A DNA stretch of 64,000 nt from Staphylospora marina (GTDB lineage Bacteria > Bacillota > Bacilli > Thermoactinomycetales > Thermoactinomycetaceae): positions 2,206,182-2,270,181 of the forward strand of contig NZ_CP034118.1 of the NCBI RefSeq assembly GCF_003856495.1, read 5' to 3'. The position numbers and the translations under genes are program-made. A model generated the notes under the pieces. The model had not been told where the DNA came from and did no database searches. It worked only from the letters and a program-made list of their open reading frames with translations. Of this stretch, positions 45,874 to 51,630 are shown in pieces. The first letter of the stretch is position 1. Each line of letters opens with the position of its first letter.

Positions 45874-47289
45874 TTATGCTTCCAGCCAGTTCGTGTGGAA
45901 GTCTCCGTCGCGGTCCACCCGCTTGTAGGTGTGGGCACCGAAGTAGTCGCGCTGCGCCTGCAACAGATTGGCGGGCAGGCGCTCGGAACGGTAGCTGTCG
46001 TAATACGACAGGGCGCTGGAAAAGGCAGGCACCGGAATGCCGTTCAAGACGGCGGCCGCGACGACTTCACGCCATGCTTGCTGATAATTGTCCACGATCT
46101 CCTTGAAGTACGGATCCAGCAGCAGGTTGGGCAAGTTCGGGTCGCGATCGTACGCGTCCTTGATGTTTTGCAGGAACCGGGCGCGGATGATGCAGCCGCC
46201 GCGGAAGATCATGGCGATTTCACCCGGCTTCAGGTTCCAACCGTACGCTTTGGAGGCAGCCGTCATCTGCGCGAAGCCCTGGGCATAGGAGCAGATCTTG
46301 CTGGCGTACAGGGCTTTGCGGATGGATTCGATGAATGCTTTCCGGTCCTCGATCACCACCGCGCCCGGCTTGGGACCTCCGAGCACATTGGAAGCCCGCA
46401 CGCGCTCCTCTTTCATGGCCGACAGGAAGCGGGCATAGACGGATTCCGTGATGATGGTGAGCGGAACGCCCAAGTCGAGCGAGCCTTGGCTCGTCCATTT
46501 GCCCGTTCCCTTTTGACCCGCGGAATCCAGGATCACATCCACCAGCGGTTTGCCCGTTTCCGGATCGGTCTTGGTGAAAATGTCCGCGGTGATCTGGATC
46601 AGATAGCTGTCCAATTCTCCCTTGTTCCACTCGGCAAACACTTCGGCCAATTCGGCGGCATCCATGTTCAAAAGATGCTTCATCAAGTGGTACGCTTCGC
46701 AGATGAGCTGCATGTCCCCGTACTCAATGCCGTTGTGGACCATTTTCACGTAATGACCCGCTCCGTCCGGTCCGATGTACGTGCAACAGGGGTCACCGTC
46801 CACCTTGGCTGCGATCGCGGTCAGGATCGGTTCCACGTGTTTCCAAGCTTCCGGCTGACCGCCCGGCATGATGGCCGGCCCTTTCAACGCGCCTTCCTCT
46901 CCGCCCGACACCCCGGCTCCGATGAAGTGGACGCCCATGGCGGACAGGTCCCGGCTGCGGCGGATCGTGTCCTCAAAATATGCGTTTCCGCCGTCGATCA
47001 CAATGTCCCCCGGCTCCAGGTACGGTTTCAGCTGTTCGATCGTGGCGTCGGTCGGGTCTCCCGCCTTGACCATCAGCATGATTTTGCGCGGTTTCGCCAG
47101 CGAAGCGATGAAATCCCCGATCGTTTCGGCCGGCACCAGGTTTTTGTCCGGATGTTCACGGACGAGTTCACGGACTTTGTCCGGCGTACGATTGTACACG
47201 GATACCCGGAAGCCTTTGCTTTCCATGTTGAGTGCCAGATTTTTGCCCATCACGGCCAGTCCGATGACACCGATGTCACTGCTTTTCAA
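45874..47289 (-). CDS. gndA: 6-phosphogluconate dehydrogenase (decarboxylating, NADP)
   Basis: A 471-residue enzyme of the oxidative pentose phosphate pathway that converts 6-phosphogluconate to ribulose 5-phosphate. The N-terminal cofactor site is [16 protein letters not shown]; catalytic blocks are [21 protein letters not shown] and [16 protein letters not shown] (Lys and Asn). [10 protein letters not shown] and the C-terminal tail [16 protein letters not shown] match the long dimeric form. The start is TTG 47289, with AAGGTGGAG six bases upstream; upstream in-frame GTG and TTG codons overlap that site. It stands alone. Confidence 0.97.
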
Positions 47290-47477
47290 TGTCAACTCCA
47301 CCTTTTCCGAGATGATCCTGTTTTCATATGATTCCCCAAAGACTAGTTTACTGTTTCACAAGCAAAAAGGGATAGTAATTTATGCCGATTCGTCAAAAAC
47401 ACTTTACCCATCCATTCCATTCCACGCATGAATGAAATTCTGAACATTACGACATTTACAAACATCAAAAAAATTTG

Positions 47478-47507
47478 TTGACATCAAATTATTTTGTTTG
47501 TTACAGT
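47478..47507 (+). promoter_or_regulatory. promoter of the methyltransferase-peptide-CapA-MFS operon
   Basis: TTGACA (47478-47483), an 18-base spacer and TACAGT (47502-47507) lie in an AT-rich stretch about 70 bases before the methyltransferase start. The -10 is imperfect; TATAGA two bases further is an alternative. Confidence 0.55.
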
Positions 47508-47577
47508 ATAGATGGAAGATGAAATCACTTAATGAAATGACAAAAATCGACACCTCATCACGGGAGGGAAAAACCGG

Positions 47578-48360
47578 TTGACTCAACCAAGAGATTCCGG
47601 AGTCATTTTTGATGAGGGAACCGAATATTTCGATTCGACATTCATGACATTCCACCGTAAAATACATAACATAAATTTAACATTACAAATCGACTTCCTC
47701 AAAAAAGTGATTTCCGAATTCGATCAGCCACGGATCATCGATTATTGCTGCGGCGAAGGAAGACATCTCATTCCCCTCCATGAAGAGGGTTATGACTTGA
47801 CCGGGCTGGATGTGAACGAAGAATATCTTCAATCCATCCGGGAACGGACCGGAAACAAGGTCAACGTCATTTGCGCGGACGCCCGCCACTACAAAGGAAA
47901 CGAAGATTTCGATCTCGTCCTGAACATGGAAACCTCGATCGTGTACAACACGGACGAAGAGAATTTCAGGATTCTGGATTCCATGTACAGTTGCCTGAAG
48001 CCGGGCGGCATGATGGTTCTCCATTTGGCCAATCGCGAATTTGTGGTAAACCGCTTTCAACCGCTGGTCTGGTTTGAAGACGGCAGTGACGGTCTGGTTC
48101 TCAGACTGCAGCGGTTGAATCCGCGGACCGGCACTCTGCTCATTGAGGAAAAGCGACTCAGACAGGGACACGTCGTCAAAGAGTGTCGATTGAACATGCG
48201 ATTGTATACGCTTACGGAAATCATTCAGGCGCTGGAGAGAACCGGCTTCACCGTTGAACAGGTACACGGGGATTTCAAAGGTTCACCCTATACCTTCGAC
48301 TCCATGGACATGGTGCTGGTCTGCAGGAAACCACCCTTGGAAGGAGGTGAACCGAAATGA
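47578..48360 (+). CDS. class I SAM-dependent methyltransferase, first gene of a small-peptide operon
   Basis: A 260-residue Rossmann methyltransferase. Motif I is IIDYCCGEGRHLIPL, followed by LTGLDVNEEYL, FDLVLNMETSIVYN (motif II region) and LKPGGMMVLHLANRE. The C-terminal half (RLNMRLYTLTEIIQALERTG) is of the small-molecule type. TTG 47578 follows GGGAGGG by nine bases. The stop overlaps the ATG of a 12-codon ORF. Composition is more AT-rich than the flanking housekeeping genes. The peptide of the next ORF could be the substrate, but this is inference; it could equally methylate a small metabolite. Confidence 0.85.
   Translation: MTQPRDSGVIFDEGTEYFDSTFMTFHRKIHNINLTLQIDFLKKVISEFDQPRIIDYCCGEGRHLIPLHEEGYDLTGLDVNEEYLQSIRERTGNKVNVICADARHYKGNEDFDLVLNMETSIVYNTDEENFRILDSMYSCLKPGGMMVLHLANREFVVNRFQPLVWFEDGSDGLVLRLQRLNPRTGTLLIEEKRLRQGHVVKECRLNMRLYTLTEIIQALERTGFTVEQVHGDFKGSPYTFDSMDMVLVCRKPPLEGGEPK
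48341..48350 (+). promoter_or_regulatory. perfect ten-base Shine-Dalgarno of the 12-codon ORF
   Basis: AAGGAGGTGA is fully complementary to the 3' end of Bacillus 16S rRNA and lies six bases before ATG 48357. Such a strong site in front of a tiny ORF is hard to explain unless the ORF is translated. Confidence 0.7.
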
Positions 48361-48395
48361 AACGTGACACCGTCATCATCATCGTCATCGACTGA
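48357..48395 (+). CDS. 12-codon ORF, candidate micro-peptide or leader peptide
   Basis: The ORF encodes MKRDTVIIIVID. It overlaps the methyltransferase stop as ATGA and has a perfect AAGGAGGTGA ribosome site six bases upstream. The peptide is charged at its start (K, R, D), then has six consecutive Ile/Val residues and ends in Asp. It is followed by a hairpin and then the CapA-like and MFS genes. Two readings are possible. It could be a precursor or a mature product of a peptide natural product, modified by the adjacent enzymes and exported by the MFS protein. Alternatively it could be a leader peptide whose Ile/Val codons control the downstream hairpin. I know no family that matches. Confidence 0.5.
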   Translation: MKRDTVIIIVID

Positions 48396-48436
48396 GTGAG
48401 TCCGGGTTTCGGTGTTCTCCATGAATAATTCGACGG

Positions 48437-48480
48437 AAATGCTGGTATTTCTCCGGTTCCCCTGGAGTATGCCAGCATTT
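48437..48480 (+). promoter_or_regulatory. hairpin between the 12-codon ORF and the CapA-like gene
   Basis: AAATGCTGG pairs with CCAGCATTT, extended by partial inner pairing (TCTCC / GGAG), and is followed by CCTTTCTG. It may partly terminate transcription, making the upstream genes more abundant, or stabilise the upstream mRNA. Confidence 0.5.
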
Positions 48481-48507
48481 CCTTTCTGTGTGAAGGGAGT
48501 GGAGACC

Positions 48508-49827
48508 ATGAATTCATCCCTGACGTTGATTGCCACGGGAGACAGTTTCATCAACCGTCGTTTCCCCCGGGACGCTTCCTTCGACGGACTGCGCCGCCTG
48601 TTGTCAACCGCGGATGTGCGATTCACCAATCTGGAAACCACCGTTCACCGGGACGAAGGCATTCCCTCCGCCCGCAGCGGAGGGACATGGGCAATGGCTC
48701 CCCCCCAGGTTCTTCATGACCTCAAAGAACTGGGCTTCAATCTGTACTCTCTTGCCAACAATCACATGATGGACTTCTCCGCGGAAGGCCTGCAAGCCAC
48801 CATCCGGCATCTGGACGCACACGGCCTGGTGCATGCGGGATCGGGTGAACATCTGTGGGAGGCCAATGCCCCTGCCTATCTGGAAACCTCCCGTGCCCGG
48901 GTGGCCCTGATCGCCGTCTCCACCACGTATCACGAAGAACACCGTGCCGGTGAACAACGTCCAGACATGATCGGAAGACCCGGCATCAACCCTCTCCGGC
49001 ACCACACGGTACATATTCTCCGGAAAGAACGGATGGAGTCCCTGAAACAGATCGCCGAAAGCACGGAGATCAATGCGGTCTTCAACCTGGCCAAAAAAGA
49101 GGGACGCATCCTGGGAGAACTGCCGGAGGGCGTGTTTCTGTTCGGAAACGAGGTGTTCAAGGAAGGAGAGAACGAAGGCACCTTCCGTTCGCCGGACCCC
49201 CATGACATGCAAAGGATTATGCGCAGTGTGTCGGAAGCCTCTCGTCAAGCCGATGTGGTGCTGGTCAGCGTCCACTCCCATGAGATGAAAGGCGAAGATC
49301 CGGAACGACCTCCCGACTTTCTCATCCAATTTTGCCGCAGTTGCATCGATCATGGGGCCCATGCCGTCATCGGTCACGGTCCTCACGTGGTCAGAGGGAT
49401 CGAGATTTACAAGAACAGGCCCATTTTTTACAGCTTGGGCAATTTCTTTTTTCAAAATGACACCGTAAGCAAACTTCCCGCGGAATTTTACCTTCCCCTT
49501 CGGCTGGGAGCCGACTCCACGGTGGCGGATGCGCTGGACGCCAAGAGCAAAGGAAACCGTACCGGATTTATCGTGAACCGCGACATTTGGGAATCGGTCA
49601 TCGCTCGGTGGAGCATGGTCGAAGGGGAATTGACGGAGCTGACGCTGCACCCGTTGGATTTGGGCCACGGTTTGCCCAGATACCGAATGGGGCTGCCCAA
49701 ACTGACGAACCATGAGCGGGTTCTGGAGAGAATCAGACGATTGTCACAAGCGCTTGGAACGGAGATCAGAATCGAAAACGGCTTGGGGAAATGGATGGCC
49801 GGATCTGCCGTTCCGGAGGAGAGATGA
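48508..49827 (+). CDS. CapA/PgsA-like metallophosphatase family protein, cytoplasmic
   Basis: A 439-residue protein of the bacterial capsule-synthesis CapA (PGA_cap) family, which has a calcineurin-like metal-binding fold. Motifs are LIATGDSFINRR (metal-binding Asp), FTNLETTV (Asn, Glu), YSLANNHMMDF (NNH), VSVHSHE and VIGHGPHVVRGIEIY, then FYSLGNFFF. All metal ligands expected of the fold appear present. Typical CapA proteins are membrane-anchored; this one has no signal or membrane helix. ATG 48508 follows GGGAGTGGAG. A longer in-frame start is possible but would translate the preceding hairpin. In this operon it may act on a peptide or metabolite rather than on polyglutamate. Confidence 0.85.
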   Translation: MNSSLTLIATGDSFINRRFPRDASFDGLRRLLSTADVRFTNLETTVHRDEGIPSARSGGTWAMAPPQVLHDLKELGFNLYSLANNHMMDFSAEGLQATIRHLDAHGLVHAGSGEHLWEANAPAYLETSRARVALIAVSTTYHEEHRAGEQRPDMIGRPGINPLRHHTVHILRKERMESLKQIAESTEINAVFNLAKKEGRILGELPEGVFLFGNEVFKEGENEGTFRSPDPHDMQRIMRSVSEASRQADVVLVSVHSHEMKGEDPERPPDFLIQFCRSCIDHGAHAVIGHGPHVVRGIEIYKNRPIFYSLGNFFFQNDTVSKLPAEFYLPLRLGADSTVADALDAKSKGNRTGFIVNRDIWESVIARWSMVEGELTELTLHPLDLGHGLPRYRMGLPKLTNHERVLERIRRLSQALGTEIRIENGLGKWMAGSAVPEER

Positions 49828-49829
49828 CC

Positions 49830-51059
49830 ATGCACGTGCTTCGCTCCAACCGTCCGTTTCTGTCGATCTGGATGGCACAACTGCTTTCGCGTATGGGTGA
49901 CGGCATCCTGTCCGTCACGATCATTTTTTTGATCGGGTCCGCCAGCCAGGATCCATGGTTGGTCGGCATGGTCCTGTTCGCCCAGTGGGGCCCTTCCGTG
50001 TTGTTCGGTCTCTTCGCGGGTGCGATCGCGGACCGCGTCCGAAAGCACCGGCTGATGATGGTGGCGGATGCGGTTCGTGCCGTGCTCGTGCTCGTGATGT
50101 TGGTGATGAAGGATTCCGCGGAGTGGTTGATCCTGCTTATCTTTCTGGAAGGCGCGGTGACGGCATTTTATTATCCCGCGAGACTGGCCTACATTTCGGA
50201 GATCGTGGAGCGGGAACGCATCACGGAAGCGATGGGGATCATGCAAAGCACCTACTATGTCACCATGCTGCTCGGTCCGGCCATCGGAGGGCTTCTCATC
50301 GCGTCCCACTCCGTTGCCCAAGTGTTCTGGATCGACGCGGCAAGCTATCTGGGGGCCCTTTTCTTCACCTGGCTGGCCGGTCGCATGGTGCCTTCCCGCA
50401 ATCCCGGCCGGCATGAACCGTTGACTGCGATTTTCGGCGATTTGTCCGAAGGATTTCGGGTATTCGCCCGCACGGATGTCCTGCGGGAACTGATGCTGAT
50501 TTTTTGCCCGTTCATGCTGGTGGCCGGGCTTTTCAACACCAACTACAATGCTTTGCTGCTTCAGGAATTCCGCTTGAACGGATTTGAATTCGGCATTTCG
50601 GAAGCATGTCTGGCGCTGGGAGCCGTGCTCGGGGCTCTTTCCATTTCCCGCATCCCCCGGCAAACGCCTCTCGGACGACAACTGATGTACCTGTTGTCGG
50701 CATTCAGCATGATCATGTTGCTGGTGCTTCCGCTTCAGCTTTGCAACGGCACCCCGTTCATCGTTCCGGCCGTTTGCGTCTGGAGTCTGGTGTGCGGGTG
50801 CTTCAGCGGACTGCTGAACGCGTGGGTGATGAGCCAGCTGTTGCAGTTGATTCCCTTGTCGTTCCGGGGACGAGGTGTCTCTCTGATGCAGGCGGTCGTC
50901 AATGCGGGGATGATTGTGGGGTTTTTGGCGGGAGGTTGGTTGGCGGGAACCGCCGGGATCACCCGGATTTTGGTGTGGACGGGGGGATTCAGCCTCCTCG
51001 GCTCCATCCTGTTCACAAGATCCGACATGTACCGGAAGCTGAATGCCTTATGCAGGTAG
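49830..51059 (+). CDS. MFS transporter, probable exporter
   Basis: A 409-residue major facilitator protein with 12 predicted helices. The loop 2-3 signature reads FGLFAGAIADRVRKHRLMM, and RFAxT-like and PARLAYISEIVERERITEAMG segments match the MFS_3 (enterobactin-exporter/EntS-like) group, whose members export small molecules. ATG 49830 is eight bases from GGAGGAG; ATG 49824 overlaps the CapA-like stop as ATGA. It is the last gene of the operon and ends at a terminator hairpin. Confidence 0.88.
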   Translation: MHVLRSNRPFLSIWMAQLLSRMGDGILSVTIIFLIGSASQDPWLVGMVLFAQWGPSVLFGLFAGAIADRVRKHRLMMVADAVRAVLVLVMLVMKDSAEWLILLIFLEGAVTAFYYPARLAYISEIVERERITEAMGIMQSTYYVTMLLGPAIGGLLIASHSVAQVFWIDAASYLGALFFTWLAGRMVPSRNPGRHEPLTAIFGDLSEGFRVFARTDVLRELMLIFCPFMLVAGLFNTNYNALLLQEFRLNGFEFGISEACLALGAVLGALSISRIPRQTPLGRQLMYLLSAFSMIMLLVLPLQLCNGTPFIVPAVCVWSLVCGCFSGLLNAWVMSQLLQLIPLSFRGRGVSLMQAVVNAGMIVGFLAGGWLAGTAGITRILVWTGGFSLLGSILFTRSDMYRKLNALCR

Positions 51060-51213: not shown

Positions 51214-51241
51214 GCCCGTGACTGATCGTTCACGGGCTTTT
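51214..51241 (+). terminator. terminator of the peptide/CapA/MFS operon
   Basis: An 8-bp stem GCCCGTGA / TCACGGGC, followed by TTTT. Confidence 0.8.
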
Positions 51242-51321: not shown

Positions 51322-51630
51322 TCATCCTTGCTGCAAGCGCCGGACGGACTGCCAAGCGAGGAATGCGAAGAAAAAGCTGATCACGCCGCTGAGCAGATTC
51401 GTGGGGAAGATGAAGAACAGATTGAGAATCCCGTCCATCACCAAAAGCGCGATCGCCAGCAAATAGACCAGGCGGGAAAACGGCTGCCCTTTCAGCTCGA
51501 AATAGGTCAGGAAAAAATACAGCGCAACGAGAAAAAAGTGCACGGCGATCACCGGCGCGTGTTCCACAAACAAGTTCCAGATGCCGAAAAGCAGGAACAA
51601 TGCCACGATGACGAGATGAAACCCAAGCAT
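51322..51630 (-). CDS. small hypothetical membrane protein (102 aa)
   Basis: A 102-residue protein made almost wholly of hydrophobic segments: about four helices, starting MLGFHLVIVALFLLFGIWNL and ending in a basic VRRLQQG. AAGGAGG precedes ATG 51630. No family is recognised. It follows gatB by about 150 bases on the same strand and may be in the same transcript. Confidence 0.7.
   Translation of the reverse strand: MLGFHLVIVALFLLFGIWNLFVEHAPVIAVHFFLVALYFFLTYFELKGQPFSRLVYLLAIALLVMDGILNLFFIFPTNLLSGVISFFFAFLAWQSVRRLQQG

Follow-up and report, generated by a model that had tools for sequence, protein, structure and literature searches.

A 12-codon minigene beside a methyltransferase gene in Staphylospora marina: a candidate minimal RiPP-like locus

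Layout of the locus

The window, by which we mean the whole 64-kb stretch of Staphylospora marina DNA that was analysed (NZ_CP034118.1) and whose positions serve as coordinates throughout, carries on its plus strand four genes in the order methyltransferase, 12-codon open reading frame (ORF), "CapA" and MFS exporter, at the positions that an earlier note, made from sequence alone, had given them. The first encodes a class I SAM methyltransferase (MT) with a TTG start (47578..48360; Pfam Methyltransf_25, 8.9e-18). Its TGA stop codon (48358-48360) is overlapped, as ATGA, by the ATG at 48357 of a 12-codon minigene (48357..48395) that encodes MKRDTVIIIVID*, the proposed precursor peptide, behind the Shine-Dalgarno (SD) sequence AAGGAGGTGA (48341..48350); no other ORF in the window, on either strand, combines an ATG start, a length of 8-16 codons and a GGAGGT at suitable spacing. 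The third gene (ATG 48508; 48508..49827) encodes a PGA_cap protein (PF09587, 1.6e-58) that begins at the first strand of the domain and has no signal peptide, and the fourth (49824..51059, starting at ATG 49824 or 49830) encodes a protein matching both MFS_1 and MFS_3.

A consensus scan places at 47478..47507, where the sequence is AT-rich, a sigma-70-like promoter (TTGACA-18-TACAGT, with TG preceding the second hexamer), and at the end of the operon a terminator-like hairpin (51214..51237); GC content is 0.37 around 47250-47749 vs approximately 0.58-0.60 on either side. The features claimed by the earlier note for these genes and their flanks all held, namely the TTG start, the ATGA-overlapping 12-codon ORF with its SD, the missing signal peptide, the MFS_3-like exporter, the AT-rich promoter region and the terminator, and the 12-codon ORF is real. 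Two features had been missed. The CapA-like and MFS genes also overlap as ATGA (49824-49827), and RNA folding predicts a strong, long hairpin (48435..48482) downstream of the minigene and ahead of the CapA-like gene, followed by the short T-rich tail TTTCTGT. This hairpin is possibly a partial terminator or an RNA stabiliser acting after the minigene. The locus is flanked by gnd, permease, exonuclease and gatBAC genes; nothing at the locus points to a protease, an RRE domain or an immunity gene, and an Rfam search of the locus and its relatives gave no convincing match.

The minigene in three loci

Two further genomes carry an MT of the same clade, which is supported at 100/100 and limited to three minigene loci; the three belong to different families of distantly related bacteria. 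The first, G328, repeats the order of the window exactly, MT, short ORF, "CapA" and MFS, and its peptide is MKRDRIIIID vs MKRDTVIIIVID in the window; a hairpin of unrelated sequence occupies the equivalent position. In the second, G036, a tandem array of nine 13-codon ORFs, MERNTVIIIIIPD, comes after the MT, and every copy has its own AGGAGGTGA. The SD element of the window recurs in G328 and upstream of 9/9 G036 copies. All three loci bearing the MT clade contain a short, strongly SD-led ORF with the residues M-[KE]-R-[DN]-...-I-I-I-...-D, and the pattern across loci (10-13 codons) can be written M-[KE]-R-[DN]-(T/R)-(V)-I-I-I-...-D. Arg, Asp, Thr, Val and Ile are retained between loci through different codons. 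Among the nine G036 copies only two sites of the ORF vary, both synonymously, and the spacers are rich in indels.

The earlier note had set the recurrence of a conserved short ORF in homologous neighbourhoods as a test of its peptide idea, and the test was passed in 3/3 MT-clade loci. The MT clade and the minigene occur only together (3/3), the short ORF being absent from 33 MslH-like loci without this MT and from the ten neighbourhoods inspected among other MT matches (approximately 23-32% identity). Since G036 has neither an MslH-like protein nor an orthologous MFS, only the MT and the minigene are constant. An MFS gene that does lie at the G036 locus was rejected as a member of the system: its product is 18% identical, and it precedes two M16 peptidase genes in what is probably an ordinary neighbourhood. 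Viral contigs searched by protein, by alignment and with a DNA pattern gave no match, and one pattern match in another genome (G990) was set aside because it proved to be the beginning of a gene of the alpha/beta-hydrolase-like kind.

The known loci number only three. Sequence comparison gives good support to a translated peptide kept by selection; there are no expression data. In the general sense of the term, a RiPP requires a genetically encoded precursor under selection, and that criterion is met; enzymatic modification is inferred from the gene neighbourhood only.

The methyltransferase, the MslH-like protein and the exporter

The AlphaFold model of the MT (pLDDT 86) finds as its top PDB match by Foldseek CypM, the cypemycin N-terminal methyltransferase (7wzg, 6.3e-20; PMC11285071), with which it shares the class I fold. 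Identity to CypM is only about 21%, other N- and C-methyltransferases fit almost equally well, and linaridin genes were not found beside the window locus. VIA-align groups the model with N-methyltransferases of peptides and amino sugars, in a broad set whose members tie, and the HMM evidence on MT type is unspecific; the family is broad, and the substrate cannot be read from the sequence. Specific kinship with daptide methyltransferases was discarded, as control MTs reached equal or better scores. Relatives of the MT on plasmids are distant only, and none were found in phages.

The "CapA" label of the earlier note is corrected: the protein is a relative of MslH, the epimerase that acts on the C-terminal Trp of the lasso peptide MS-271 (PMC10406935; 8gq9, 8itg), and the modified-peptide idea is strengthened by this correction. 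The likeness runs over the full length (36% identity; PDB sequence match 1.2e-73) and through the fold, peptide-binding subdomains included (TM 0.92 to 8itg). All eight of the metal ligands and catalytic dyad residues of MslH (D11, E44, N87, H88, D91, H259, H261 and H295) are kept. The same eight are also kept in wider CapA-like relatives, including those in catabolic contexts, so their presence is no proof of peptide epimerisation. The Trp pocket of MslH (G60-62, L64, I319, Y345, L348, L355, F356) is not preserved, with L64 replaced by A, I319 by N, Y345 by L, L348 by K and L355 by G; Lys occupies the Leu348 position in both minigene loci that have an MslH-like protein. The match to the NCBIfam MslH equivalog NF038314, at 281.8 bits, lies far below the cut-off of 700. 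No lasso cyclase or leader protease is present in the operon or among its neighbours (the search being limited to these genes), and the precursor, at 12 residues, also differs from that of the MslH system. Most MslH-like relatives adjoin amidohydrolase, M20, Xaa-Pro peptidase or transporter genes, and those on plasmids lie in other gene contexts. In the literature searched, which did not include subscription papers or bioRxiv, MslH-type enzymes appeared only in lasso work. A peptide epimerase is what we propose this protein to be; the activity is inferred, without an enzyme assay.

The exporter has an ortholog in G328 (38% identity, 9.3e-74), the sole match in that genome at E 1e-15. It is Mef-like, and its relatives include drug exporters.

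A proposed peptide product and its rivals

We suggest, with a probability of roughly 0.62, that this is a minimal RiPP-like locus in which the MT acts on a leaderless peptide encoded by the minigene, a peptide that at two of the three loci is probably also epimerised at the conserved C-terminal Asp and exported; chemistry, export and role are all inferred. The peptide would be made without a leader of the usual length. By analogy with CypM, the MT would methylate it, most likely at the N-terminal amine, and the MslH-like enzyme may epimerise a residue at the C-terminus, most likely the invariant Asp, by a two-base His/Asp chemistry with one metal ion. The MFS protein would export the product, for which an antibiotic or signalling role seems most likely, and the ratio of peptide to enzyme would be raised by the hairpin downstream of the minigene or, in G036, by the tandem array. 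The earlier note's reading of a modified, exported short peptide is supported to this extent, modification and export themselves remaining inferences. The nearest precedent for so short a ribosomal precursor without a usual leader, also tied to export, is microcin C (MccA, 7 residues; PMC6495379); the peptide sequence is conserved here but is not among MccA peptides, and no ThiF-type adenylyltransferase or MccB-like gene lies in the operon or among its neighbours. In the literature searched, with the same exclusions, the peptides are unprinted and no described system matches.

Four alternatives deserve mention. (i) The minigene could be a regulatory leader, in which ribosomes stalling at the Ile/Val codons, through amino-acid shortage or an antibiotic, set termination at the 48435-48482 hairpin ahead of the MslH-like and MFS genes. 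The hairpin and T-rich tail that come after the string of Ile/Val codons in the window, the hairpin similarly placed in G328 and the Mef-like MFS downstream all speak for it. An arrangement of a single leader ORF and then a terminator suits the window and G328 but not the array of G036, where nine separate minigenes, every one with an SD of its own, have no orthologous gene downstream; moreover, conservation is as high in the charged head M-[KE]-R-[DN] and at the final Asp as in the Ile run, and the MT, lying upstream, would escape control. We consider this explanation unlikely. (ii) The peptide could be an unmodified or lightly modified signal of the SHP type, sensed intracellularly by an RRNPP regulator. 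Like Rgg-associated SHPs (PMC3679016), it is short and Ile/Val-rich with one acidic end, its Ile-rich core resembles mature SHPs such as DILIIVGG and EGIIVIVVG, and in G036 a gene for an HTH_3 plus TPR regulator lies approximately 1.4 kb from the MT. SHPs, however, are released from a longer exported precursor by cleavage ahead of the acid residue, with which they start, whereas here that residue comes last in a peptide of 12 residues in all that has no signal peptide. No such regulator gene adjoins the window or G328 loci, no Rgg gene is adjacent to the window locus, and SHPs need neither an MT nor an MslH-like gene; this, too, seems improbable. (iii) The three proteins could act on an unrelated small molecule or an imported peptide, the minigene being incidental. 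The usual gene company of MslH-like relatives and the drug exporters among those of the MFS favour this, but the exclusive pairing of MT clade and minigene and the equal gene order of the two full loci count against it, and we doubt it. (iv) That the minigene works by being translated, through ribosome or tRNA sequestration, would suit a very strong SD, a very short ORF and its multiplication in G036, but leaves the enzymes and the residues conserved at both peptide ends unexplained and is very unlikely.

The modified-peptide reading can be taken further, though we stop just short of favouring the bolder version: ribosomal natural products of a new class, whose precursors have only 10-13 residues and no leader and are multiplied through tandem minigenes rather than through core repeats within one precursor. 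The product would be a linear, Ile-rich peptide with methylation at one end and a C-terminal Asp brought into the D configuration by a non-lasso MslH-type epimerase of calcineurin fold.

Annotation pipelines overlook very short genes. For the present minigene, comparison of loci speaks for translation and for selection; it has been amplified in tandem to nine copies in one genome, and it comes with enzymes dedicated to it. If the proposal is true, MslH-type epimerases would extend past lasso peptides, and the locus would provide a 12-residue substrate within reach of chemical synthesis and of direct assays with both enzymes in purified form, as well as an entry point to the widespread MslH-like "CapA" proteins of unknown function.

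The minigene and its partners

The operon begins at a promoter-like site (47478) and comprises a TTG-started class I methyltransferase gene (MT, 47578-48360), a 12-codon minigene encoding MKRDTVIIIVID (48357-48395), and genes for a PGA_cap ("CapA") protein (48508-49827) and an MFS protein (49824-51059), ending at a terminator-like hairpin (51214-51237). One ATGA overlap joins the MT stop to the minigene start, and a second joins the PGA_cap stop to the MFS start. The minigene and the PGA_cap gene are separated by a long hairpin (48435-48482) that has a T-rich tail and is absent from the earlier note's account of these four genes. The minigene is the window's sole ATG ORF of 8-16 codons with a well-spaced GGAGGT ahead of it.

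With the CapA protein as query, about 400 class-level genomes returned one locus, in a genome of another family (G328), with the same gene order (MT, PGA_cap, MFS). Between its MT and PGA_cap genes lie GGAGGTGA, six bases, and the ORF MKRDRIIIID (ATG-AAA-AGA-GAT-CGT-ATT-ATC-ATC-ATT-GAC-TAA). MT searching found a third locus in G036, a genome of the window's own order; its MT is 50% identical, and 3′ of it a unit of 84-88 bp stands in tandem nine times, every copy made up of GGAGGTGA and a 13-codon ORF, MERNTVIIIIIPD. Among these copies only two ORF positions vary, both synonymously, and the spacers carry many insertions and deletions. Between loci, the same Arg, Asp, Thr, Val and Ile residues are written with different codons. 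The motif occurred in none of 200,000 composition-matched random sequences, for each of two compositions. The short ORF on which the earlier note rested its peptide idea is real; it is a strongly initiated gene of 10-13 codons, under selection and linked to a single MT clade; two of the loci add an MslH-like protein and an exporter of the MFS_3 type.

The three MTs form one clade (100/100 support) on a long stem, with no further members found in 399 class and 324 phylum genomes, and a minigene-type ORF is absent from 33 MslH-like loci that lack an MT of this clade. Scanning for the Shine-Dalgarno-plus-motif pattern in G328's family (327 genomes), the window's order (42, G036 included) and another family (39) recovered only the three known loci, besides a fourth match where an unrelated gene begins, which we reject as chance. 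As only part of the known genomes was sampled, there are at least three loci.

Neighbouring genes are ordinary both upstream (gnd, RNase_T exonuclease, permease) and downstream (gatB/A/C and a small ORF without Pfam match); just 3′ of the operon, on the minus strand, lies a 102-aa membrane-protein-like ORF (51322-51630) without Pfam match. GC at the operon start is 0.37 versus about 0.58-0.60 around it, and searches of 41 other genomes from the window's order turned up no MslH-like relative. Both are consistent with transfer, which the earlier note had suggested. In G036, features were noted near the MT and array (locus L112, minus strand, 1470-1336 and about 2645-2481; locus L126, 9578-10966). 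They include two small ORFs resembling secreted pro-peptides: MKHTATVLSILLAVFGMIAVTPAQSGPSDEVCDITICDPVDFIK, located between the MT gene and the array, and MYRVTHILL...SEDPGPF, upstream. Close to both ORFs are an RRNPP-type regulator gene (HTH_3 plus TPR, divergently oriented) and a protein of 211 aa that has no match in Pfam.

The predicted enzymes and exporter

MslH is a metal-dependent epimerase that acts on the Trp at the C-terminus of a lasso precursor; His88/Asp91 and His295/Asp11 act around Ca(II), with Glu44, Asn87, His259 and His261 as ligands (PMC10406935). MslH structures are the PGA_cap protein's sole solved relatives by sequence (1.2e-73), and the MslH model is its sole NCBIfam match. 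Its AlphaFold model (pLDDT 87) matches precursor-bound MslH with TM 0.92 (436 columns), the next-best fold being YmdB (TM 0.37). Although fold, 36% identity and all eight metal and catalytic residues liken it to MslH, it differs in an altered Trp-holding pocket and in scoring 281.8 bits on the NCBIfam model against that model's 700-bit cut-off. The eight residues alone do not prove peptide epimerisation, because relatives adjoining amidohydrolase, peptidase and RpiR-like regulator genes keep them too. In that pocket, the position of MslH Leu348 is Lys in both the window and G328, whose proteins group together as sisters (87/85, moderate support), and mostly Arg in other relatives, one Met-bearing clade excepted; we infer that a basic residue here would fit the C-terminal Asp, which never varies among the minigene peptides.

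MslH-like CapA proteins, about 440 aa long and complete in their catalytic residues, are encoded in 41 of the 399 class-level genomes sampled (L071-L110) and on numerous plasmids of rhizobia and haloarchaea (hits H1-H40); most of their genes adjoin one for a peptidase, an amidohydrolase or a transporter. What these proteins do is unknown; they might epimerise residues during the breakdown of peptides or D-amino acids. A 54% identical MslH-like gene (genome G349, contig C59, locus L071) has an MFS gene and transposase genes nearby but no MT or minigene.

The MT model (METHYLTRANSFERASE; pLDDT 86) has as its best Foldseek match CypM, the cypemycin N-terminal methyltransferase, and VIA-align places YunM, crocagin CgnL, CcbJ and CypM all within about two Z units. 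CypM substrates are the N-terminal amines of many short peptides, N-terminal Met included (PMC11285071). An NCBIfam daptide-MT match was rejected as specific kinship, since control MTs score equal or higher. The window's MFS protein and that of G328 are orthologs (38% identity, 9.3e-74; the sole G328 match at E 1e-15), and G036 lacks an ortholog.

Alternative explanations

An attenuator leader, in which the Ile/Val run and hairpin control the downstream genes, would account for both features, but is unlikely: it fails on the nine independent minigenes of G036, which have no orthologous downstream gene. A pheromone like the Rgg-associated short peptides (SHPs) would account for a sequence rich in Ile and for the HTH-TPR gene close to the G036 locus. 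SHPs, however, carry their acid residue first and are cut from exported precursors (PMC3679016), whereas the minigene peptide has its acid residue last and no signal peptide, and we doubt this reading as well. Less credible still is that the enzymes act on an unrelated substrate, which leaves the strict MT-minigene link unexplained.

A RiPP-like reading

Judged by the features tested, the locus does not qualify as a lasso, microcin C, SHP/Rgg or attenuator system. In the open-access literature searched, which did not cover preprints, we found neither the minigene peptide nor any MslH-type enzyme from a non-lasso pathway described. The product's biological role is unknown, and its modification and export are possibilities that we infer. 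It seems likely that the locus works like a RiPP locus, the modification again being inferred. In such a locus the entire short peptide would be the enzyme substrate: the MT would add a methyl group, probably to its N-terminus, a residue at its C-terminus would be inverted by the MslH-like enzyme, and the MFS protein would export it, with peptide output raised by the hairpin or by tandem copies. G036, which has no MslH and no MFS of this kind and whose peptide ends in Pro-Asp, may represent a variant without epimerisation.
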